A stretch of 41,370 bases of DNA from an uncultured Candidatus Actinomarina sp. (GTDB lineage: Bacteria > Actinomycetota > Acidimicrobiia > Actinomarinales > Actinomarinaceae). Every line of letters begins with the position of its first letter. Within the stretch, counting starts at the first letter, position 1. Positions 1-34,750 of this stretch are shown here, in pieces. The DNA is taken from NCBI GenBank assembly GCA_902555055.1, contig CACDQN010000001.1:231535-272904 (forward strand), given 5' to 3'. Under the pieces are notes generated by a model. It saw only the letters and a program-made list of their open reading frames with translations, was not told where the DNA came from and made no database searches. The translations under genes were made by a program, and so were the position numbers.

Positions 1-465
1 CCAATATCTTCTGTATTTAATTGGGCTAGATCATACTCACTTTGGTACTTTCAATTTGGGCTAGCGTGCTGTGCAATTGAGGTTATGGCAGTAAGTGGGC
101 CTAGACACGATTTTATGAGATTAGGAGTAATTCCACTACCCGCATCTCCTAGACAAGCCGATTTCATGATTGTTGCTGGAACAGTAACAGATAAAATGGC
201 CCCATCAGTTAAAAGGCTCTACGATCAAATGCCGGAACCAAAGTATGTTATTTCAATGGGTTCCTGTTCAAATAGCGGAGGTCCGTATTGGGATTCTTAT
301 TCAGTCACAAAGGGAGTTGACCAATTAATTCCTGTAGATGTCTATGTCCCTGGATGCCCTCCAAGGCCAGAAGCTCTTCAGGAAGGAATTATTCTTCTAC
401 AGAAAAAAATTCGCGGAGAAGACATGAAAGAAAAATGGACAGAAGTCCAAACAGAGCCAATATAA
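1..465 (+). CDS. nuoB: NADH-quinone oxidoreductase subunit B (partial, 5' end outside window)
   Basis: Frame is open from base 1: [40 protein letters not shown]...[14 protein letters not shown]...[13 protein letters not shown] motif and the other N2 cluster cysteines are present. Confidence 0.97.
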
Positions 466-466
466 G

Positions 467-1012
467 ATGGAAGAATTTTTAAATAAAATAAAGGAAAACT
501 TTATTAATACAGATGTAGAATTTGAAACAATAAATATCAAAGTCGATTCTTCACAGTGGGTCGAGACACATCAAAAACTTAAAGAAGAATTTGATTTAAA
601 ATTTTTCTCATGGCTATCTGCTATAGATTGGGATAATGAAGTTTCTATAGGAGAAGCACCAAAGGATAGCGTCTCACCCAGTTTTGAAATAATTACATGT
701 TTGTCTGATGTTTCTAATAATAATTTAGTTACCGTTTCAACCACCATTAACAAATTAGAGCCAAAGATTAACTCTCTTGTAGAAATATATGCAGGCGCTA
801 ACTGGCACGAGAGAGAAGCATTTGAAATGTTTGGAATCAATTTTGAAAATCACCCAAATCTTGAAAAATTATATCTTCCTGATGGTTACGAGGGAAATCC
901 TATGCTTAAGTCTTTCGAGTTAATTAGTAGAGAAGTTAAGCCTTGGCCTGGTGAAGTGGATGTAGAAGGTATGCCAGAAGAATCAGCTAGTGATGAGTCA
1001 GTAGATGGTTAA
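467..1012 (+). CDS. nuoC: NADH-quinone oxidoreductase subunit C
   Basis: WHEREAFEMFGINFENHPNLEKLYLPDGYEGNPMLKSF is the NuoC 30 kDa signature; lies between nuoB and nuoD. Confidence 0.95.
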   Translation: MEEFLNKIKENFINTDVEFETINIKVDSSQWVETHQKLKEEFDLKFFSWLSAIDWDNEVSIGEAPKDSVSPSFEIITCLSDVSNNNLVTVSTTINKLEPKINSLVEIYAGANWHEREAFEMFGINFENHPNLEKLYLPDGYEGNPMLKSFELISREVKPWPGEVDVEGMPEESASDESVDG

Positions 1013-2201
1013 TACACTAGACCCACAAAACCTTAATAATTTTTCAGAGGCATCTGTATCTGTAGAAATTGAAACTGAAGACATGACACTTAACATAGGT
1101 CCTCAACACCCATCAACTCATGGTGTTCTTAGATTAGTCGCAAAAGTAGATGGAGAAAAAGTTCATGATGTAAAACCTGTTCTTGGGTACATGCATCGTG
1201 GCTATGAAAAACTTGCAGAAGTGAGATCATACCCTCAAATCACTACACTTGTTAACCGCATAGATTGGGTTGCAGGATTTTCAAATGAAATTCCTTTTAT
1301 TGCTGGTGCAGAAAGACTAATGGAAATTGAAGTGCCTGAGAGGGCTAAACATATCAGATTAATTCTTACTGAGATGGCTAGAATTTCTTCACATTTTGTG
1401 TTTAATGGTGCATATGCTCTTGAAGTTGGTGCATTAACTCCAATTTTTTATGCAATGGAAGATAGGGAGAGAGTTTTAGATTTAATTGAATCAGTAACTG
1501 GTGGTCGCTTTCACCCCAACTTTAATCGAATAGGTGGAGTAAAACCAGCAGCTGGATCAGGGCCTACAACAAAAAAAGACATCCAAGATTTACCTGCTGG
1601 ATTTTATAGAGATACAAAAGTAGCAATGCAAAAAGTAATAGAGGCAGCTGACCAATTTCAAAATTTAATCGGCGGAAATGAAGTTTTTAAAAAAAGAACA
1701 AAAAATGTTGGTATCTTAACTGCTGAGACTGCAGAAGCCTTTGGAGTATCTGGCCCAATTCTTAGGGCTTCAGGAGTGAAGTCTGATTTAAGAACCCAAA
1801 CTGATTATTTGCCATATGATCAATTTGAATATGATATTCCTGTTGGAGAGAATGGAGATTGTTATGATCGATGGGATGTCAGAGTCAAGGAAATGGTTGA
1901 ATCAGCAAAAATAGTATTGCAAGCAATTGATTCAATTCCATCTGGACCACTACAAGCCAAGGTACCTAAGGTTATAAAAGTTCCTAAAGGACGAACATAC
2001 GTAAGAGCAGAAAATCCAAAAGGAGAAATGGGTTACTACATAGTATCAGATGGGGGGTTGGGACCGTATAGACTTAAAGTTCGAACAGCTTCATTCAGTA
2101 ATATTTCTATTTTACCTTTGCTACTCGAGGGAGCTTTACTCCCAGACTTAATTGCCATAATGGGTAGTTTAGATTTTGTTTTAGGGGATGTGGATAGATG
2201 A
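1005..2201 (+). CDS. nuoD: NADH-quinone oxidoreductase subunit D
   Basis: MTLNIGPQHPSTHGVLRL...MHRGYEKLAE...; 49 kDa subunit signature; overlaps the nuoC 3' end. Confidence 0.97.
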   Translation: MVNTLDPQNLNNFSEASVSVEIETEDMTLNIGPQHPSTHGVLRLVAKVDGEKVHDVKPVLGYMHRGYEKLAEVRSYPQITTLVNRIDWVAGFSNEIPFIAGAERLMEIEVPERAKHIRLILTEMARISSHFVFNGAYALEVGALTPIFYAMEDRERVLDLIESVTGGRFHPNFNRIGGVKPAAGSGPTTKKDIQDLPAGFYRDTKVAMQKVIEAADQFQNLIGGNEVFKKRTKNVGILTAETAEAFGVSGPILRASGVKSDLRTQTDYLPYDQFEYDIPVGENGDCYDRWDVRVKEMVESAKIVLQAIDSIPSGPLQAKVPKVIKVPKGRTYVRAENPKGEMGYYIVSDGGLGPYRLKVRTASFSNISILPLLLEGALLPDLIAIMGSLDFVLGDVDR

Positions 2202-3169
2202 CAGACGTCTTAGTCAAGGTAGGATTTCTTGCGCTTGCTGCATTAAATGGTGCAATCATTTTTACAATTATGGACGTTAAAGGTGCTTCATGGATGCAGA
2301 GAAGACCTGGTCCGTTACATGTAGGACTTAGAGGTTTTATATTTCCTCTTGCTGAAATACTTAAATTTGTTCAAAAAGAAGACATAATTCCGACTGAAGT
2401 GGACAGACCAGTATTTAAATGGGCTCCTGCTTATGTTATGGTCTCTTGTGTCGCACTTTTTGCTGTAGTTCCAATGAGCCCTACATTGGTTGTTGCAGAT
2501 TTAGAATTAGGTGTTTTCTTCGCACTTGCTATAAGCTCTCTTGGAACTATAGGTGTGTTAACTGCAGGCTGGTCATCTGCAAACAAATATTCCCTAATGG
2601 GTGGATTAAGAGCAGCAGGACAGCTCATAGCTTATGAGCTTCCACTTATACTTGCTGTTGTTGGGGTTGTTATCCAAGCTGAGACTATGTCATTAGTTGG
2701 GATTGTAGAAAAACAAATTGAATGGGGAGTACCTTTTGTTGTTGGCGGTCAGATAGTCGGATTCCTGATATTTATGGTTGCAGCGACAGCTGAAATGATG
2801 AGAGTACCATTCGATATGCCAATTGGTGAATCAGAATTGACAATGGGATTTATGACAGAATACTCAGGGATTAGATTTCTTATTTTTTATATTTCTGAAT
2901 ATATGAATATGTTTATTTTATGTGCAATTGCTTCAACCCTATTTCTCGGAGGCTACCATGTTCCACTTTTGCCAACTGAATGGGTTAACTTTTATGGACC
3001 TGTTGTTTTACTAACTAAGACTGCCATTTTAGGTTTTATATTGGTAGCTGTAAGGTGGTCACAGCCAAGATTTCGAGAAGATCAACTTCAAAACCTTGCT
3101 TGGAAAATACTTATTCCTGCATCTTTAATTAATATTCTTGTAACTGCAGTCATGAAAGTTGGATTCTAA
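2198..3169 (+). CDS. nuoH: NADH-quinone oxidoreductase subunit H
   Basis: Multi-TM protein with MQRRPGP..., AEMMRVPFDMPIGESEL and EYSGIRF motifs; 4-nt overlap with nuoD. Confidence 0.96.
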   Translation: MTDVLVKVGFLALAALNGAIIFTIMDVKGASWMQRRPGPLHVGLRGFIFPLAEILKFVQKEDIIPTEVDRPVFKWAPAYVMVSCVALFAVVPMSPTLVVADLELGVFFALAISSLGTIGVLTAGWSSANKYSLMGGLRAAGQLIAYELPLILAVVGVVIQAETMSLVGIVEKQIEWGVPFVVGGQIVGFLIFMVAATAEMMRVPFDMPIGESELTMGFMTEYSGIRFLIFYISEYMNMFILCAIASTLFLGGYHVPLLPTEWVNFYGPVVLLTKTAILGFILVAVRWSQPRFREDQLQNLAWKILIPASLINILVTAVMKVGF

Positions 3170-3654
3170 TGAAAACGTTTAAACCAAAAGTACCCGGATT
3201 CTTAATTGGAATAAAGATAGTAATTGTAAATATGCTTAAAACGCTATCTCCATTCCACTCAAAACCTAATGTGAATTATCCATTTGAAAAAGAAAAAGTT
3301 GCACCAAGAGCAAGAGGTGTTATTGCTCTAGATCAAGAAGCGTGTACTAGTTGTATGTTATGTGCACGACAATGTCCTGATTGGTGTATTTATATTGAGG
3401 GCCATAAAGAATTGCAACCTCCTTCAAAGCCTGGAGGCAGGCAAAGAAGTAGAGCCGTTCTGGATAGATTTGATATCGATTATGCGTTATGTATGTATTG
3501 TGGAATTTGTGTTGAGGTTTGTCCTTTCGATGCTTTATTTTGGACACCTGAATACGAGTATTCTGAATTCAATATGGGTGACATGCTCCATAACAAGGAA
3601 CGTTTAGACGATTGGTTAAAAACTGTACCTGATCCTGAAGGCCTAGAAAGTTAA
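3169..3654 (+). CDS. nuoI: NADH-quinone oxidoreductase subunit I (2x 4Fe-4S ferredoxin)
   Basis: Two CxxCxxCxxxCP motifs: CTSCMLCARQCP and CMYCGICVEVCP. Confidence 0.97.
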   Translation: MKTFKPKVPGFLIGIKIVIVNMLKTLSPFHSKPNVNYPFEKEKVAPRARGVIALDQEACTSCMLCARQCPDWCIYIEGHKELQPPSKPGGRQRSRAVLDRFDIDYALCMYCGICVEVCPFDALFWTPEYEYSEFNMGDMLHNKERLDDWLKTVPDPEGLES

Positions 3655-3655
3655 A

Positions 3656-3829
3656 ATGGAAATTTACGAAATTGTTACATACTTTACTTTGTTACTTCTT
3701 CTATTTTCAGCAGCAAGAGTAGTTACAACTTCAAATGTTATCCATGCAGCAATATCATTAGTTTTCACCCTTGCTCTTACTGCAACTCTTTTTTTACTTT
3801 TATCTACACAATTTGTGGCATACTTGTAA
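3656..3829 (+). pseudogene. nuoJ: NADH-quinone oxidoreductase subunit J, N-terminal fragment only (57 codons)
   Basis: MEIYEIVTYFTLLLLLFSAARVVTTSNVIHAAISLVFTLALTATLFLLLSTQFVAYL* matches the NuoJ N-terminus, then hits TAA at 3827-3829 and the sequence switches to NuoK in another frame. Confidence 0.85.
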
Positions 3830-4065
3830 GACGTAATGCAGTAATGGTTCTCCTTTCAATTGAGTTGATATTAAATGCAGTAAATATTAACTTTATAATC
3901 TTTGATTCCATGCTCGCTGATTCATTAATGCAAGGGCAAATTTTTACTATTTTTATAATTACAATAGCCGCCGCAGAGGTTGGTATTGGTTTAGCAATCG
4001 TATTGATGCTTTTTAGAAATAGGCAAACTGCTAACATAAACGAATTTGATTTGATGAAATGGTAA
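3811..4065 (+). CDS. nuoK: NADH-quinone oxidoreductase subunit K, lacking its normal N-terminus; first in-frame ATG is at 3844
   Basis: ICGILVRRNAVMVLLSIELILNAVNINFI...AAAEVGIGLAIVLMLFRNRQTANINEFDLMKW; NuoK-like from the GILVRRN motif onward. Confidence 0.88.
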   Translation: MCGILVRRNAVMVLLSIELILNAVNINFIIFDSMLADSLMQGQIFTIFIITIAAAEVGIGLAIVLMLFRNRQTANINEFDLMKW

Positions 4066-6074
4066 AATTTGATGCTAATTTTTTAGCAGAGACCGAACTT
4101 GTTTACACTGATGGCGGTATTTTAGCTGAGTATGCCTGGTCTTTAGTAGTCCTTCCTTTTGTAGCAGCATTTTTGATTACATTTATTGGAAAATACCTTC
4201 CATATAAAGGTGCTGAAATAGCGCTTGGAACGATTGCACTTATATTTATTTACAGTGTCTCACTTATGTTTCTTCATATAACAGAAGGGGTAGCCAATGA
4301 ATTTTTTGTCAACGTTGGAAGCATAGGTCAATTTGATATTGAATTTGGTTGGGTGGTAGATGGACTCTCCATTATGATGTATTTTGTTGTTGGTACTGTA
4401 GCTCTGCTTGTATTTATTTATGCTACAAATTATATGGAGGGTGAGATAAGATACACCTTCTTTTTTACTTCTTTAACACTGTTTGCTGGAAGTATGTTGG
4501 TATTAGTTTCGTCACCTACATTAATACAAATTTTGATTGGCTGGGAGTTAGTAGGAGTTTGCTCTTACTTATTAATTGGGCATTACTGGGAAAAGAAAGA
4601 CAATTCATCAGCAGCTATGAAAGCTTTTATAACAAACAAAATTGCAGATATTGGATTAATGATTGGAATTATTATTTTGGCTCTCAATACTGGAACATTA
4701 AGAATCTCAGAAATTCTATATCAATCAACACACGATTATGAAAAATTATCAAAGGTAGCTTTTGCTGCTGCTATCTTGCTTTTTATTGGCGCTATGGGCA
4801 AAAGTGCACAATTTCCTCTTCATGTTTGGTTGCCTGATGCAATGGCAGGTCCAACACCTGTATCTGCATTAATGCACGCTGCAACAATGGTGACTGCTGG
4901 TGTTTATTTACTAGCACGTATGTTTCCTTTCTATAAATCAATGGCTCCTGAAGCTTTAGACATTGTTATGCTATTTGGAGTTATCACGCTATTAGGAGCT
5001 GGCCTGGTAGCTATTGTTCAAGATGACTTAAAAAAAGTTTTGGCATATTCTACGGTAAGTCAATTAGGTTACATGGTTGCTGCAATTGGATCTGGAGCAT
5101 ATACAGCGGCATTGTTCCATTTATGGACACATGCTTTTTTTAAAGCACTTTTATTTTTAGGAGCTGGATCAGTAATCCACGCTGTTCACAGCAATAGCAT
5201 GCTTGAGATGGGTGGATTAAGGAAAGTAATGCCAAAAACTTTTACGACTTTTATTATTGGAACTGTAGCCTTGGCTGGCCTTCCTCCATTTGCGGGATTT
5301 TTTTCAAAAGATGAAATTCTTGCTTCATTTAATCATGAAGGCGAGACTACTTTTTTCTTCATAGCTGTTTTAGGCGCTTTTATAACTGCTTTTTATATGA
5401 CGAGGGCAGTATCGTTAACTTTCTTGGGAGAATATAGAGGACATGGGAATCCTCATGAATCTCACAATATGATGACTACTCCACTTTTAACATTGGCAGT
5501 TTTCGCTATTGCTTCTGGGTGGGTAAATATACCAGGTGTTTACACAGGATTTACTGACTGGGTTACAACCAGAAAAACAAAAATAGTCGAGTACCACCCT
5601 GAAAGCTTTGACTTATTTGCATTATCCAGTGGTTTGATAGCTGGATTACTTGGAATAGCTTTAGGTTATTATTTATATCAATTGCAAGGCAGTGCAGAAA
5701 CAGGAGATGACAAAATTAAAATTCAGCCTGTGTGGACAGTATTAGAAAATAAATACTACCTAGATCATTTTTATTTTCGATTTATTATTGATCCAATAAA
5801 AATTAATATATCTAAAGCCGTTGATAAATTTAATACAAATGTCATTGATAGGTTTATAAACGGTGTTGGTCAAATCGCCTCATTATTAGGAGGAGTTGTA
5901 TATAACAACATAGATCAAAATGGTATTGATAGATTTTTGAATATGTCTTCAAGTGGTACAGATAGTTTCGGAGGAAGGGTTAAACTACTTCAGACTGGAA
6001 GAACTCAACAATATTTAATGTTATTTTTAGGTGGCGTAGTAACAATTAGTTTATTAATTTTATTTATTATATAG
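4059..6074 (+). CDS. nuoL: NADH-quinone oxidoreductase subunit L
   Basis: 671 aa multi-TM antiporter-like subunit; GWELVGVCSYLLIGHYW, LHVWLPDAMAGPTPVSALMHAATMVTAGVYLL. Confidence 0.97.
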   Translation: MVKFDANFLAETELVYTDGGILAEYAWSLVVLPFVAAFLITFIGKYLPYKGAEIALGTIALIFIYSVSLMFLHITEGVANEFFVNVGSIGQFDIEFGWVVDGLSIMMYFVVGTVALLVFIYATNYMEGEIRYTFFFTSLTLFAGSMLVLVSSPTLIQILIGWELVGVCSYLLIGHYWEKKDNSSAAMKAFITNKIADIGLMIGIIILALNTGTLRISEILYQSTHDYEKLSKVAFAAAILLFIGAMGKSAQFPLHVWLPDAMAGPTPVSALMHAATMVTAGVYLLARMFPFYKSMAPEALDIVMLFGVITLLGAGLVAIVQDDLKKVLAYSTVSQLGYMVAAIGSGAYTAALFHLWTHAFFKALLFLGAGSVIHAVHSNSMLEMGGLRKVMPKTFTTFIIGTVALAGLPPFAGFFSKDEILASFNHEGETTFFFIAVLGAFITAFYMTRAVSLTFLGEYRGHGNPHESHNMMTTPLLTLAVFAIASGWVNIPGVYTGFTDWVTTRKTKIVEYHPESFDLFALSSGLIAGLLGIALGYYLYQLQGSAETGDDKIKIQPVWTVLENKYYLDHFYFRFIIDPIKINISKAVDKFNTNVIDRFINGVGQIASLLGGVVYNNIDQNGIDRFLNMSSSGTDSFGGRVKLLQTGRTQQYLMLFLGGVVTISLLILFII

Positions 6075-6082
6075 GAGGAAAA

Positions 6083-7651
6083 TTGGAAATATTAACAAAT
6101 GGGGTAGGGCTATCTGCAGTAGTCTTTTTTCCTTTAGTCAGTGCATTGGTTATAACACTTATTCCAAAGGGCCAAGAATTTCTAATTAAAGGGTTTGCAT
6201 TAGTTTCCTCAATAATAACTTTTGTCTTCAGTGTTTTACTGTTGTTGAATTTTGATTTTTCTTCGGCTGATCAATTACAACTAGGTAATAAAATTTCTTG
6301 GATTAAGAGTATCAATGCTAATTACGAAATAGGAATAGACGGAATTTCTTTACCATTATTAATATTATCAACCTTCATTACAGTGTTAGCAATTATTTAC
6401 TCTATAGAGCACTTACCAGAACCAAAAAGTCCGAAAGGATTTCTTGCATTAATACTTGTTCTTGAAACTGGAATGAATGGAACTTTTGTGGCATTAGATT
6501 TGATATTATTTTTCGTTTTTTTTGAAATTGTACTTTTACCAATGTATTTCATGATTGGTATTTGGGGAGACAGAACTGTTAGAACAGTTGCTGGATTAAA
6601 AAACCAGATTGAAACAAGACTATATGCAAGTATTAAGTTTTTTGTATTCACATTATTTGGTTCTGCGTTCATGCTTCTTGGCTTCCTGGGACTTTATTAT
6701 CGTGGAAATAAAACCTTTAGTATTCCAGAATTAATAGAGCTTGGCACAACGGGGGCTTTTACAGGTACTTTTGCAACACTCGTTTTTGCAGTTCTCTTTT
6801 TAGGTTTTGCTGTAAAGGTACCAATGTGGCCTTTACATACTTGGCTCCCTGACGCTCATACAGCTGCACCTACTGTAGGTTCAGTTCTTCTTGCAGCTAT
6901 TTTGCTCAAACTCGGTTCATATGGATTTGTCAGAATTGCAATACCAATTCTTCCAGAACAAGCAAAAGCTTGGGCACCTGCAATTGCAATTTTATCTGCT
7001 ATTGGAATAATTTACGGGTCGTTGGCTTGTTTAGCTCAAACTGATTTAAAACGCCTAATCGCTTTTTCATCCGTAGGTCATATGGGTTTTGTTATGCTGG
7101 GTATTGCATCTTTAACACCAATTGGGATTAATGCTGCAATGATTGGAATGGTTGCACACGGGGTAATTACAGGTTTATTATTTTTCCTTTCTGGATCCAT
7201 GGCCCACACTTATCACACTAGAGATATGGGAAGGTTGGGTGGAAATATGAAGCTTCTACCTAAGACTGGAGCTTTACTTGGATTTACTGCAATGGCATCT
7301 TTAGGACTGCCAGGTCTTGCTGGTTTTTGGGGTGAATTTATGGCACTGCTAGGTGCTTATAACCCTTTAGAGGGTTTAAATGTTACGGTATTTAGAACGT
7401 CCATGGTGGCTGGTGCCGTCGGTACTGTTTTAACAGCTGGTTATTTATTATGGATGTTACAAAGAGTTAATCTAGGAGAACCATCAGAAGAATGGATTGA
7501 TAAAGAACTTCATGATGCAGACGGATATGAACTAGCAGCTTGGATTCCACTTGTTATATTGACAATTCTAATTGGAGTTTTTCCAAAATTAATTTTCGGA
7601 GCTACAAATGACGCTGTAATTGCAATGTTATCTAAAGCTTTTGGGGGTTAA
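6083..7651 (+). CDS. nuoM: NADH-quinone oxidoreductase subunit M (TTG start)
   Basis: MWPLHTWLPDAHTAAPTVGSVLLAAILLKLGSYG; AGGAGG upstream of the TTG start. Confidence 0.96.
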   Translation: MEILTNGVGLSAVVFFPLVSALVITLIPKGQEFLIKGFALVSSIITFVFSVLLLLNFDFSSADQLQLGNKISWIKSINANYEIGIDGISLPLLILSTFITVLAIIYSIEHLPEPKSPKGFLALILVLETGMNGTFVALDLILFFVFFEIVLLPMYFMIGIWGDRTVRTVAGLKNQIETRLYASIKFFVFTLFGSAFMLLGFLGLYYRGNKTFSIPELIELGTTGAFTGTFATLVFAVLFLGFAVKVPMWPLHTWLPDAHTAAPTVGSVLLAAILLKLGSYGFVRIAIPILPEQAKAWAPAIAILSAIGIIYGSLACLAQTDLKRLIAFSSVGHMGFVMLGIASLTPIGINAAMIGMVAHGVITGLLFFLSGSMAHTYHTRDMGRLGGNMKLLPKTGALLGFTAMASLGLPGLAGFWGEFMALLGAYNPLEGLNVTVFRTSMVAGAVGTVLTAGYLLWMLQRVNLGEPSEEWIDKELHDADGYELAAWIPLVILTILIGVFPKLIFGATNDAVIAMLSKAFGG

Positions 7652-7653
7652 AA

Positions 7654-9132
7654 ATTTCTATAAATTACTTTGCAATATCTACTGAACTTATTGTAGTTTT
7701 TACAATAGTTGGTACTTTGATTTTAGACCTAATACTTCCAAGAAGGTCAAAGTACTATGTAGCTGCTTTTGCACTTTTAGGCACTCTATTTTCACTTGCA
7801 CCTCTTGTAGTCCAGTGGGTTAACTATACAAATCCAATATATGCATTTGAAGATAGTTTTGTTGTTGATAAGTTTTCTATTATTTTTAAAGGCCTTTTCA
7901 TTTTGATAACATATCTAACATTTCTTCTTTCAATTAACTTCATAGAAAGTGATAAATATTACCAAGGTGAATATTATTACCTTTTATTAAGCTCTCTTTT
8001 AGGAGCTCTCATTGTCAGCTCATCTAGAGACTTACTCACTATTTTTATTGGAATAGAATTAGCATCTACTCCAATGTTTCTTCTCTCTGGTTGGAAAAAG
8101 GGAGATAGGAAGTCTAATGAAGGTGCTATAAAATTTTTCTTGCTTGGTGTTTTGTCAGCATCATTAATACTTTACGGATTTTCACTTCTGTATGGTTTAA
8201 CTGGAAAAATTGTTTTTTCTGAAATCTCTTCATTAATCATTAATGGAGCACTTCAATCCTCTCCAGTGTTATTACTAAGTTCAATTTTAGTAATTTCGGG
8301 ATTAGGATTTAAAATCTCCATTGTTCCCTTTCATTCATGGGCACCAGACACATATGAAGGGGCGCCTTTACCTGTAACTGCATATTTATCTGTAAGTTCT
8401 AAAGCAACTGGTTTTGTTGCGCTTATAATTTTGCTCACAACAGTTTTTAGTAGTGCTGGTGAAAGCTGGGGAATAATATTGGCAATTATTTCTGGACTAA
8501 CTATGACGCTTGGCAATCTTGTTGCATTACAGCAATCCAATCCAGTTAGGCTTCTTGCATACTCTTCGATTGCACAGGCAGGTTTTATATTAGCTCCACT
8601 TGCTGTTGCTGGCATCACAGGTAACTTTCAAGATGGAATATTTGCTAGTGTTACATATTTAATAATCTATGCATTTATGAATTTAGGTGCATTTCTTTCT
8701 GTTCAATTATTTAGTAACCATGCAGGATCATCAAATTTTTATGAATGGGGTGGAATAGCAAAAAAATCACCTATTACTGGAGTCTTAACAACAATTTTCT
8801 TTTTTTCCTTAGCTGGAATACCTCCACTGGGTGGTTGGTTTGCAAAATTTGTTGTATTCAGAAGTATGCTCAGTACGGGTGAACCTATAGGTCTAACACT
8901 TGGTATTGTTGGTGCAGTAAATGCTGTTATAGCCTTGGTTTACTATGCAAGAATTTCAAAAGTTATATGGATGGATGAGTTAAAGGATGTAAATTCAGAA
9001 ACTAGCTTTCAATTTGAGAGCCCCTTAAAAGTAGTGGGAGTTTTTACTGTGTTAATAACATTCATCTCTGGAATATTTCCAGGAATTTTTAGCTATCTTG
9101 GTGAAGTATCATCAATATTTTTTGGCAATTAA
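7654..9132 (+). CDS. nuoN: NADH-quinone oxidoreductase subunit N; start codon uncertain (ATT at 7654 proposed; TTG at 7717 is the first standard start)
   Basis: PFHSWAPDTYEGAPLPVTAYLSVSSKATGF NuoN signature; NuoN-like residues ISINYFAISTELIVVFTIVGTLILDLILP extend upstream of the TTG at 7717. Confidence 0.9.
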   Translation: MSINYFAISTELIVVFTIVGTLILDLILPRRSKYYVAAFALLGTLFSLAPLVVQWVNYTNPIYAFEDSFVVDKFSIIFKGLFILITYLTFLLSINFIESDKYYQGEYYYLLLSSLLGALIVSSSRDLLTIFIGIELASTPMFLLSGWKKGDRKSNEGAIKFFLLGVLSASLILYGFSLLYGLTGKIVFSEISSLIINGALQSSPVLLLSSILVISGLGFKISIVPFHSWAPDTYEGAPLPVTAYLSVSSKATGFVALIILLTTVFSSAGESWGIILAIISGLTMTLGNLVALQQSNPVRLLAYSSIAQAGFILAPLAVAGITGNFQDGIFASVTYLIIYAFMNLGAFLSVQLFSNHAGSSNFYEWGGIAKKSPITGVLTTIFFFSLAGIPPLGGWFAKFVVFRSMLSTGEPIGLTLGIVGAVNAVIALVYYARISKVIWMDELKDVNSETSFQFESPLKVVGVFTVLITFISGIFPGIFSYLGEVSSIFFGN

Positions 9133-9135
9133 AAC

Positions 9136-10155
9136 TTGTCGACAATTAACTTTACTTCTTACATTAAAAGCAAATATCATATGAACGAATTTATATATTT
9201 TGATACTTTCATGCAAGAAGCACTTTATTCTGAATCAGGGTTTTTTAATACTGAAAATGTCAGATCTTCAGAAAAAGGAGATTTTTTAACATCTCCAGAA
9301 GTATCTCAATATTTTGGAGTCATTATTAGAAGCTGGATTGATAGCAAAAACTTTTATGAAAATATTGTTGAACTTGGGTCGGGGACAGGCTCTTTAATTG
9401 AGCAGATAGGTTTAAAAAATATAACTGCAGTAGAGCTATCCAGTACTGCAAGAAAAGTGATTGATAACAAAGGAATATTAAGTGTTAAATCTTATGAGGA
9501 TTTAAATATTTTGAGTGCGGACTTAGTCTATGGAAATGAAATATTAGATAACATTCCATGCTCAATTGCTGTGTATAAAGAAAATAATTGGTATGAGAAA
9601 GTAGTTGATATTAGTAAAGATAATTTGAGCTATGCTTATCAACCAATAAGAGATGAGCAACTGAATTGGATTAACTTAAATAAAATTGAACCCAATAAAA
9701 ATTACGAAGTAGAACTACAGACAAATATTGATAACTTAATTGCTAATTTAATTAATAGGTTTCAGCCAAAAAGTTTTTTATTTTTTGACTACGGTTATGA
9801 ACAAAAAAACAGAAACAAAAGAAAATACAAATCACTTCTTAGGACTTACAAGAAACACCATTTATCGGTTGATCCTATAGATGACCCTGGAAATGTTGAT
9901 ATCACTTATGATATTAATTTTTCTGCGGTAAAAGAAAATTTCAAATCTCTTGGTTACAGCGTATCTCTAAAAAAACAAAGGGAGTTTCTATTAGAAAATG
10001 GCTTTAACGATATTTATGATGATTTAAAAAACCAATATATCACTCTTGAAGGAATCGAAAAATTAAAAATAAATTCACAACTCAATGGTTTGAAAGCAAT
10101 TCTTGATTCCAACGGATTAGGTGACTTTTATTGTTTAATTGCTGAAAAAATATAA
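9136..10155 (+). CDS. MidA/NDUFAF7-family class I SAM-dependent methyltransferase (TTG start)
   Basis: FMQEALYSESGFFNTENVRSSEKGDFLTSPEVSQYFGVIIRSW, ELGSGTGSL, YGNEILDNIPC, FFDYGYE; 3 nt after the nuoN stop. Confidence 0.88.
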   Translation: MSTINFTSYIKSKYHMNEFIYFDTFMQEALYSESGFFNTENVRSSEKGDFLTSPEVSQYFGVIIRSWIDSKNFYENIVELGSGTGSLIEQIGLKNITAVELSSTARKVIDNKGILSVKSYEDLNILSADLVYGNEILDNIPCSIAVYKENNWYEKVVDISKDNLSYAYQPIRDEQLNWINLNKIEPNKNYEVELQTNIDNLIANLINRFQPKSFLFFDYGYEQKNRNKRKYKSLLRTYKKHHLSVDPIDDPGNVDITYDINFSAVKENFKSLGYSVSLKKQREFLLENGFNDIYDDLKNQYITLEGIEKLKINSQLNGLKAILDSNGLGDFYCLIAEKI

Positions 10156-11353: not shown

Positions 11354-12316
11354 TTGTCTGTGATAATTTGTATCGGTAATGCCCTTGTTGATTCTTTAGA
11401 ACAAATTGAAGAGTCCAAGATTGATGAATTAAATTTAAATAAAGCACGAATGACTCTAGTCGAAAAAGATCGTTCAAACTTCCTCCTTCGCAATATGAAT
11501 AATCCAGTCTATGAAGCTGGTGGATCTGCTGCTAATACTGCATACTGGATTTCCCAACTTGGAGGCGAAGCAGGATTTATTGGAAAAATATCAAATGATG
11601 ACCTAGGGGAACAATTCCAATCAAGCTTGAGAAATTCTGGTTTAAAAGATTTAACTGTTTATGAAGATGAAGATAATCAAACAGGCCTTTGTGCAATTTT
11701 TATCACTCCAGATGGAGAAAGAACTATGAATACATACCTTGGAGCAGGAGAACATTTATCAGTTGAAGATTTAGATAATGAAGAATTAGAAAAAGCAAAA
11801 ATTGTTTATATGGAGGGGTATTTATGGGATAAACCATCAAGTAAGTCTGCTTTTTTACAGGCTGCTAAACATAATAAAGAAACAGGAGGAAAAAACGCTA
11901 TAAGTTTGTCAGATGTATTTTGTGTAGACCTCCATAGAGATAGTTTTATTGAATTCATTAAAAATGATATTGATTATGTTTTCTGCAATGAGGATGAATT
12001 AAATAGTCTTTTTCAATCTGATTCTACTAATAGTTCAATTCATTACTTCTTAGAAAACTTTCCTAATGTCGAACAGCTAATATGCACCCTTGGTCCAGAG
12101 GGGGTCTTGATTTTAGCAAACGACGAAGAGTATCGTTTTGAGGCAACGGACACAATTGTTAAAGATAAAACTGGAGCAGGAGATTTTTTTGCTGCAGGGT
12201 ATCTATATGGCCTTCAAAAGAAACTATCTATAAACGAATCTGCTGAAATTGCCAATAAGAGCGCAGCTTATGCAATCAGCGAAATTGGAGTAAGGCCAAA
12301 AAAACCTTTTAATTAA
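11354..12316 (+). CDS. PfkB-family carbohydrate/adenosine kinase-like (TTG start)
   Basis: EAGGSAANTAYWISQLGGEAGFIGKISNDDLGEQF and the PfkB C-terminal motif DKTGAGDFFAAGYLYG. Confidence 0.9.
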   Translation: MSVIICIGNALVDSLEQIEESKIDELNLNKARMTLVEKDRSNFLLRNMNNPVYEAGGSAANTAYWISQLGGEAGFIGKISNDDLGEQFQSSLRNSGLKDLTVYEDEDNQTGLCAIFITPDGERTMNTYLGAGEHLSVEDLDNEELEKAKIVYMEGYLWDKPSSKSAFLQAAKHNKETGGKNAISLSDVFCVDLHRDSFIEFIKNDIDYVFCNEDELNSLFQSDSTNSSIHYFLENFPNVEQLICTLGPEGVLILANDEEYRFEATDTIVKDKTGAGDFFAAGYLYGLQKKLSINESAEIANKSAAYAISEIGVRPKKPFN

Positions 12317-13080
12317 TTAGTCCAGCCCAATACACTAATTAACTCTCTTCTATCATCATCAAACATCTCAATTTGCAAATTTTCGAAATCTATTTGCGCG
12401 GGCTTAGACGTTTTATCTTTAGAAAATATGATGAGATTATTTTCTGAGTCACCAGCAATGATTTTATTTCCATCTGGTGACCAATGAAGAGATTCATAAT
12501 AATAATTAGTAGGTGCTTTCGAACTAAAGACTTCTATAGTTTCGGTCCTATTTACATAGTAAATTCCAATTAATCTTGTTTCATAATCAGATGTGTCCCA
12601 AGGTTCAATTAATTTTTCACCATAGACGTTCATATTATTATTTTCGTAATTTGAAAAATTGAGTGATATTTCATCAGTTACTTGACCAGTGTCAATATTT
12701 ACCAATATGGCTTTTTGTTCATTATCAGATTGTGAATCCCAGTATCTCAACAGAATGTTGTCTTCTTGATATATTTGAGCATCGTAAAAATATATATCGT
12801 ATGAATAGTCATAAAGATCACTATTACAAATTATCTTTTTTTCTTCGAATGGTTTTTTTGAAAGATCTATATATAAAATGCAACTATCCAAAATGTCTGG
12901 AGCTGGTGGGATAATATTTTGTGTTTGGATTTCAACATGGTAAATGATTTTTCCTTCAAAATTAGAATTTTCTGTAAATGAATCATACTCCGGTAGAGGT
13001 ACCACCCCAAACATACCAACTATTAAAGTAGTAATTAAAAGAATTCCTGTAGAAATAAAAAGAAGACGTTTATTCGGCAT
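12313..13080 (-). CDS. Membrane-anchored hypothetical protein; possible WD40/TolB-like repeats
   Basis: N-terminal TM segment LLFISTGILLITTLIVGMF; HWSPDGNKIIAGDSENNLIIFSKD resembles a beta-propeller blade; overlaps the next - strand gene. Confidence 0.7.
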   Translation of the reverse strand: MPNKRLLFISTGILLITTLIVGMFGVVPLPEYDSFTENSNFEGKIIYHVEIQTQNIIPPAPDILDSCILYIDLSKKPFEEKKIICNSDLYDYSYDIYFYDAQIYQEDNILLRYWDSQSDNEQKAILVNIDTGQVTDEISLNFSNYENNNMNVYGEKLIEPWDTSDYETRLIGIYYVNRTETIEVFSSKAPTNYYYESLHWSPDGNKIIAGDSENNLIIFSKDKTSKPAQIDFENLQIEMFDDDRRELISVLGWTN

Positions 13081-33504: not shown

Positions 33505-33851
33505 TGGAAAATACAACAGTTAAAGCACAAGGAAAATATATTCGTCAATCACCATACAAGATGAGATTAGTACTCAACTTGATAAGAGGTTTAGAAGTAC
33601 AAGACGCACTCAATGTCTTAACATTCACAAAAAGAAAAGCTGCTACAGAAATAAAGCAGGTCTTAGAGAGTGCTTTAGCTAATGCAGAAGCTAACTATAA
33701 TTTAAATCCTTCAGATTTATATATTTCAAAAGCTATTGCAAATGAAGGCCCAACTCTTAAAAGATTTAGACCAAGAGCAAGAGGTAGAGCTGGAAGAATT
33801 AATAAAAGAACATCGCATTTGTTGATAGAGTTAGAAAGCGTAGGTGAATAA
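33504..33851 (+). CDS. rplV: 50S ribosomal protein uL22
   Basis: [28 protein letters not shown]...[20 protein letters not shown]. Confidence 0.97.
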
Positions 33852-34750
33852 TGGGTCAAAAAACACATCCTTATGCATTCAGAATTGGAATTGTAAATGA
33901 CTGGAAGTCACGTTGGTTTAATGGAAAAGATTACAAGGACTTAGTCAACCAAGATTATCAAATTAGAAAGTTTTTAACAAAAGAGCTACCTAAAGCAGCT
34001 GTATCACGAGTAGATATTGAAAGAAGAGATAAAGGTGGAACTTTAACTGTAGATATCCACACTGCTAGACCAGGAGTAGTTATCGGAAGAAAAGGTGTTG
34101 AAGCCGATAGATTAAGAAAAGGTATTGAAAAACTTTCAAAGCAACCAGTAAAACTTAACATTATCGAAATTCGTGAAGCTGAATTAGATGCACAACTTTT
34201 ATCAAGAGGAATAGCAGATCAATTGGAAAACAGAGTAGCTTTTAGAAGGGCTATGAAAAGGGCAGTTACGGCTGCATTAAAAGCTGGTGCGGAAGGCGTT
34301 AGAGTTGAGTGTTCTGGACGATTAGGCGGTGCAGAAATGGGTCGTAGAGAATGGTACAGAGAAGGAAGAGTACCTCTCCATACCTTAAGAGCTGATATTG
34401 ATTTTGGACGAGCTACAGCTCATACAACAGTTGGTGCAATTGGAGTTAAAGTATGGGTTTATAAAGGTGATGTAGTTGGTTCTAATAAACTAAGACAAGA
34501 AAAAATTTCAGCCGAAGCTAATTTAGCAAGTGGTGGACCTGCAGCGGGTAGGGTAAAGTCTGTTAAGTCAAGAGCAGAGGCAGCTGTTGGAGAACAGAAA
34601 AAATCAAAAATTCTTGAAGCTGGTGGTGGTAAGAAAGCCAGTGACGAAAAAAGTTCAAATATCGTTGAAGCTGGTGGCGGCAAAAAAATTACAAAAGAAG
34701 TAGCCCAAGCAGATTTTGAAGAAGAAAAATCAATATTGGAAGAAGAATAA
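33851..34750 (+). CDS. rpsC: 30S ribosomal protein uS3 with acidic/repetitive C-terminal tail
   Basis: [23 protein letters not shown]...[10 protein letters not shown]...[30 protein letters not shown]. Confidence 0.97.
34607..34687 (+). repeat. Two-copy in-frame repeat in the rpsC tail, [K/N]I[L/V]EAGGGKK, 51-nt period
   Basis: [10 protein letters not shown] (34607-34636) and [10 protein letters not shown] (34658-34687). Confidence 0.85.

Follow-up and report, generated by a model that had tools for sequence, protein, structure and literature searches.

In the Candidatus Actinomarina genome assembly G000 (26 contigs, 1.01 Mb, completeness 82%), a nuoJ gene breaks off early and runs directly into a nuoK gene that lacks its beginning. 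The question raised by this locus is whether a living cell had lost the intervening sequence, or whether the loss was produced when the genome was amplified and assembled. The window, by which we mean the whole stretch of DNA that was analysed, is 41,370 nucleotides long and corresponds to C1:231535-272904 of G000. The features on which the argument depends are the following, with positions given in the window.

85..9132, + strand: nuo cluster 2, nuoB-C-D-H-I-J-K-L-M-N (open reading frames; cluster described in PMC7771536)
3169..3654, + strand: nuoI, intact, the anchor for our survey of relatives (open reading frame)
3656..3829, + strand: truncated nuoJ of 57 codons, 55 of which match the relatives' 172-aa NuoJ (open reading frame, alignment, Pfam)
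3817..3821, + strand: deletion joint, 5-bp GGCAT common to the nuoJ-side and nuoK-side parents, with 411 nt missing relative to the genomes G018 and G020
3822..4065, + strand: nuoK remnant, coding intact from residue 20 (open reading frame, alignment, PF00420)
4059..6074, + strand: nuoL, intact, the downstream anchor (open reading frame, comparison with relatives)

Together with nuoA and the start of nuoB, which lie just upstream of the window, cluster 2 comprises 11 genes, nuoA-D and nuoH-N, without nuoE, nuoF and nuoG; nuoJ and nuoK are present as remnants only. The initial annotation, made from the sequence by itself, had described a 57-codon NuoJ that runs without a gap into NuoK sequence in another frame, and the open reading frames bear this out: nuoJ ends in LLSTQFVAYL with its stop codon at 3827-3829, and NuoK sequence follows immediately in a different frame (...ICGILVRRNAVMVLLSIELILNAVN...). 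Residues 1-55 of the 172 in NuoJ are kept, with a 98-100% match to relatives, and residues 56-172 are lost, that is, everything from TM3 onward in a subunit that has five helices in complex I. The profile PF00499 matches the NuoJ remnant over positions 1-39 of 146 with 27.7 bits, which is below the curated cut-off of 33.2 that we would expect a full-length, functional NuoJ containing the TM3 stretch to exceed; on the intact NuoJ of a relative, the same profile scores 108.2 bits over positions 1-146.

NuoK has lost residues 1-19 (MIVQPVLVTAAALFSLGIY) on alignment, in agreement with the 15-20 N-terminal residues that had been estimated to be missing. The sole in-frame start for NuoK after the upstream stop at 3652 is the ATG at 3844, 15 nt past the NuoJ stop, which gives a product of 73 aa ending at 4065 and without the first transmembrane helix; an alternative start further upstream was considered and rejected, as there is none between 3652 and 3844. 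The match of PF00420 to this remnant covers positions 25-95 of 95, short of the full-length match with three helices that characterizes NuoK. An in-frame fusion of NuoJ and NuoK was likewise rejected. Although 411 is a multiple of three, the two genes overlap in different frames, and so the joint is out of frame. The remnants do match the complex I families NuoJ (PF00499, ND6) and NuoK (PF00420, ND4L), and the proteins of the relatives can be aligned with NuoJ/NuoK and NdhG/NdhE chains of known structure.

The extent of the loss can be read from the distance between the nuoI stop and the NuoK motif SIELILN, which is 201 nt in G000 and 611-614 nt in every relative measured. In the two nearest genomes, G018 (locus L006) and G020 (locus L007), with about 92-94% DNA identity to G000 over most of the region, the distance is 612, and therefore 411 nt are missing; this falls within the 400-450 nt proposed at the outset. 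The two copies of GGCAT stand at 2149-2153 and 2560-2564 of L006, exactly 411 apart. A short repeat at the joint had been predicted, and one of 5 bp is indeed found, but it had been given as ATTTGTGGC, the first part of which comes from the nuoJ side only; the shared part is GGCAT. Since two random breakpoints in this contig share at least 5 bp with probability 0.0085, the overlap is probably not due to chance. Slippage in the cell, a chimera formed on amplification and a collapse in assembly would each account for it equally well. Searched against the rest of the G000 assembly, the missing 411 nt gave only chance matches (best E 0.1). The joint sequence had no match in a collection of viral contigs, a result that carries no information here because the collection contains viruses.

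It is conceivable that normal gene variation has been misread, and that a short NuoJ is standard for cluster 2 in this genus. We therefore turn to the other genomes searched in this genus, 41 in number and one per species. NuoJ of cluster 2 was found in 34 of them, at its full length of 172 aa in every case. The remaining seven genomes, in which neither NuoI nor NuoJ of the cluster has a match, are 63-78% complete, and the cluster is present in all eight genomes of at least 90% completeness. With 172 aa in every other genome that bears the cluster, and with no point found in its support, we reject a short NuoJ as the norm and give that reading almost no credence. The broken nuoJ/nuoK is unique to G000 among 35 genomes. 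Comparison with related genomes had been suggested as a check for an assembly artefact, and its outcome favours one: all 34 relatives are intact, and about 411 nt longer at this point.

An 11-gene nuo paralogue cluster without EFG has been described in Ca. Actinomarinales by López-Pérez et al. (2020, PMC7771536), who compared it with the F420H2 dehydrogenase of Methanosarcina mazei. The damaged set is this known paralogue, with gene set and location in agreement: it has the same genes, again without EFG, and the same heliorhodopsin/iron-uptake neighbourhood, and it differs in the 411 nt across nuoJ/nuoK that are absent from the G000 assembly alone. The heliorhodopsin (PF18761, E 8.4e-88; C1 ~228.3-229.1 kb) adjoins cluster 2, and between both nuo clusters of the genome lie heliorhodopsin, an iron transporter and ferrochelatase, as the published description has it (PMC7771536). 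The other of these clusters is a complete nuoA-N set at C1 ~201.9-216.2 kb, about 25 kb upstream of the damaged one, with an intact NuoJ of 192 aa. Thus, one complete complex I cluster would remain to the cell even if the deletion were real.

Two further observations concern the surroundings of these clusters. The stretch of about 670 bp at C1:216306-217023 (L003 ~12306-13023), between nuo cluster 1 and an ABC transporter, includes a 188-aa TetR-like open reading frame and is missing in G018 and G020. Right after the cluster-2 nuoN, at 9136-10155 of the window, stands a SAM-dependent methyltransferase of the MidA/NDUFAF7 type (PF02636, E 9e-26; motif GDFLTSPEVSQYFG), which is found at the same place in G020. 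The mitochondrial MidA/NDUFAF7 member is a complex I assembly factor, and the methyltransferase may serve one of the two complexes.

If the break were an old one, as in a pseudogene or a decaying cluster, we should see relaxed selection and more lesions in the remnants and their neighbours. No other lesion was found. Relative to its relatives, the NuoJ remnant carries 8-10 synonymous and 0-1 non-synonymous differences, and the NuoK remnant 13-14 synonymous and 0 non-synonymous; on G000's own branch, the remnants have accumulated 18 synonymous differences and none that changes an amino acid. Over the cluster-2 genes compared, the ratio of non-synonymous to synonymous differences is 18:191 in G000, 8:87 in G018 and 20:115 in G020, so that G000 equals G018, lies below G020 and shows no excess. 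Purifying selection is undiminished on the remnants and on the neighbouring genes. Had the remnants been unconstrained along the entire branch, with about 3 non-synonymous changes per synonymous one, we estimate that some 50-60 amino-acid changes would be expected. Set against the zero observed, this would make the break younger than about 5% of the branch, by our own estimate, unless it never occurred in a cell. Judged from these substitutions, the break is either an artefact or else extremely recent.

The same data bear upon the idea of a long-established, selected rearrangement, in which a 57-aa NuoJ and a NuoK with two helices would serve in a functioning, non-canonical complex I. In its favour, the reading frames of both remnants remain open, neither has acquired an amino-acid change of its own, and the NuoK start 15 nt past the NuoJ stop makes coupled translation imaginable. 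However, the remnants are conserved to the same degree as in intact relatives and carry no compensatory change, the out-of-frame joint yields no fusion protein, and no relative shares the arrangement. Moreover, NuoJ has lost the conserved stretch VYIGAVIVLFLFGIM immediately beyond the joint, which belongs to TM3, the gate described in PMC7613608. In ND6, the mitochondrial counterpart of NuoJ, rotation of helix 3 opens or closes the water wire that runs between quinone site and pumping subunits (PMC7613608). We regard a working complex of this kind as highly improbable, and the break is most likely not a new kind of complex I. The initial annotation, which had raised a non-canonical or non-functional complex I, overstated the consequence, given a second complete nuoA-N cluster, the identity of the damaged set as the EFG-less paralogue, and undiminished selection.

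There remain a real but very recent deletion and an error of single-cell amplification or assembly. If the cell that was sampled, or a close relative of it, did suffer a deletion, the GGCAT microhomology could have been the site of slippage or of end joining; chance produces such an overlap in less than 1% of random joints. The joint is clean, outside it the contig and the relatives are collinear, the loss would be buffered by the intact complex I cluster, and a single break in about 141 kb indicates that the assembly is not riddled with errors. Against such a deletion stand the 34 of 34 cluster-bearing relatives that lack it, the presence of the cluster in all eight genomes of 90% completeness or more, the strong purifying selection on it, and the absence of any decay, which would confine the event to the estimated last fraction of the branch. 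We consider a recent deletion a minority possibility, which deserves to be kept in view.

An artefact must be weighed against the quality of the assembly as a whole. About 141 kb of C1 could be aligned to G018 and G020, and nuoJ/nuoK is the only place in it where a gene is broken. An apparent break at C1:163045-164217 was rejected, because the metK start of the relative had been over-extended, as was one at 33851-34750 of the window, which reflects length variation at the C-terminus of rpsC; the remaining flags are contig ends. This rpsC (ribosomal protein S3) has a repeated C-terminal tail, and the protein has 299 aa in G000 versus 305 aa in G020.

Single-cell genomes dominate this lineage: 175 of 182 Actinomarinales genomes in a 2020 survey were SAGs (PMC7771536), and nearly all the named Actinomarina relatives in our comparison bear single-cell isolate names. 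G000 is thus presumably a single amplified genome as well. For the SCGC pipeline, the main marine single-cell pipeline, the figures quoted from benchmark cultures are 1.5 misassemblies and 3.0 indels per 100 kb (PMC11247762), a rate at which about 2 misassemblies would be expected in 141 kb. On those figures the error rate is enough for one such event here, although most of the misassemblies counted may be of other kinds than losses of a few hundred bases.

The joint also resembles the known errors of MDA single-cell genomes (PMC1855051; PMC11247762) in that nearby same-strand segments are joined at a few shared bases, the intervening stretch is lost, and the product is unique to one assembly. 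Among direct-orientation MDA chimeras whose parts lie less than 10 kb apart, 90.9% have terminal complementarity (PMC1855051). Yet direct joins at this distance are a minority class, with 11 of 475 MDA chimeras and inversion as the commonest error type (PMC1855051), and G000 itself would have to be of MDA origin; their rarity counts against an artefact. So does the fact that no second assembly path containing the missing 411 nt was found in the G000 genome.

On balance, the 411-nt loss is probably a single-cell amplification or assembly error that is absent from the living population. This reading is favoured because the break is unique to one assembly, shows no decay, belongs to a lineage known mostly from SAGs, and falls within what the pipeline's error rate would allow; the 34 intact relatives and the 5-bp GGCAT at the joint are as an artefact would have them. 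Two nearby points that share GGCAT would have been joined during amplification or assembly of the single-cell genome, and the true order would be the genus standard: nuoI, a 172-aa nuoJ that overlaps nuoK by ATGA, a 101-aa nuoK, and nuoL. We infer that the two ends were joined in the laboratory or by the software, not in a cell. The initial annotation had offered a real deletion and a repeat-driven assembly collapse side by side, and it was right about the existence of a deletion by comparison with relatives, about its extent and about the short repeat; the consequence drawn for complex I went too far.

The main value of this result is therefore one of quality control. What we believe about the gene content of uncultured marine bacteria comes from assemblies of single cells and metagenomes, in which a joint that looks clean and has a short overlap can pass for the loss of a core respiratory subunit. 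It is less probable, and for us tentative, that a wild cell lost the function of its EFG-less second complex I through a natural, very recent deletion, with the 14-subunit complex left intact. If so, G000 would represent a naturally occurring mutant without the function of this paralogue, for which F420 has been proposed as electron donor: its NuoJ would lack transmembrane helices 3-5, including the water-wire gate helix, and its NuoK the first of three helices, so that assembly of the 11-subunit complex, or pumping by it, would be expected to fail, and the intact 14-subunit complex I would have to sustain the cell. Such a deletion would mean that a viable cell can lose the lineage's second complex I, and would bear on what that complex does.
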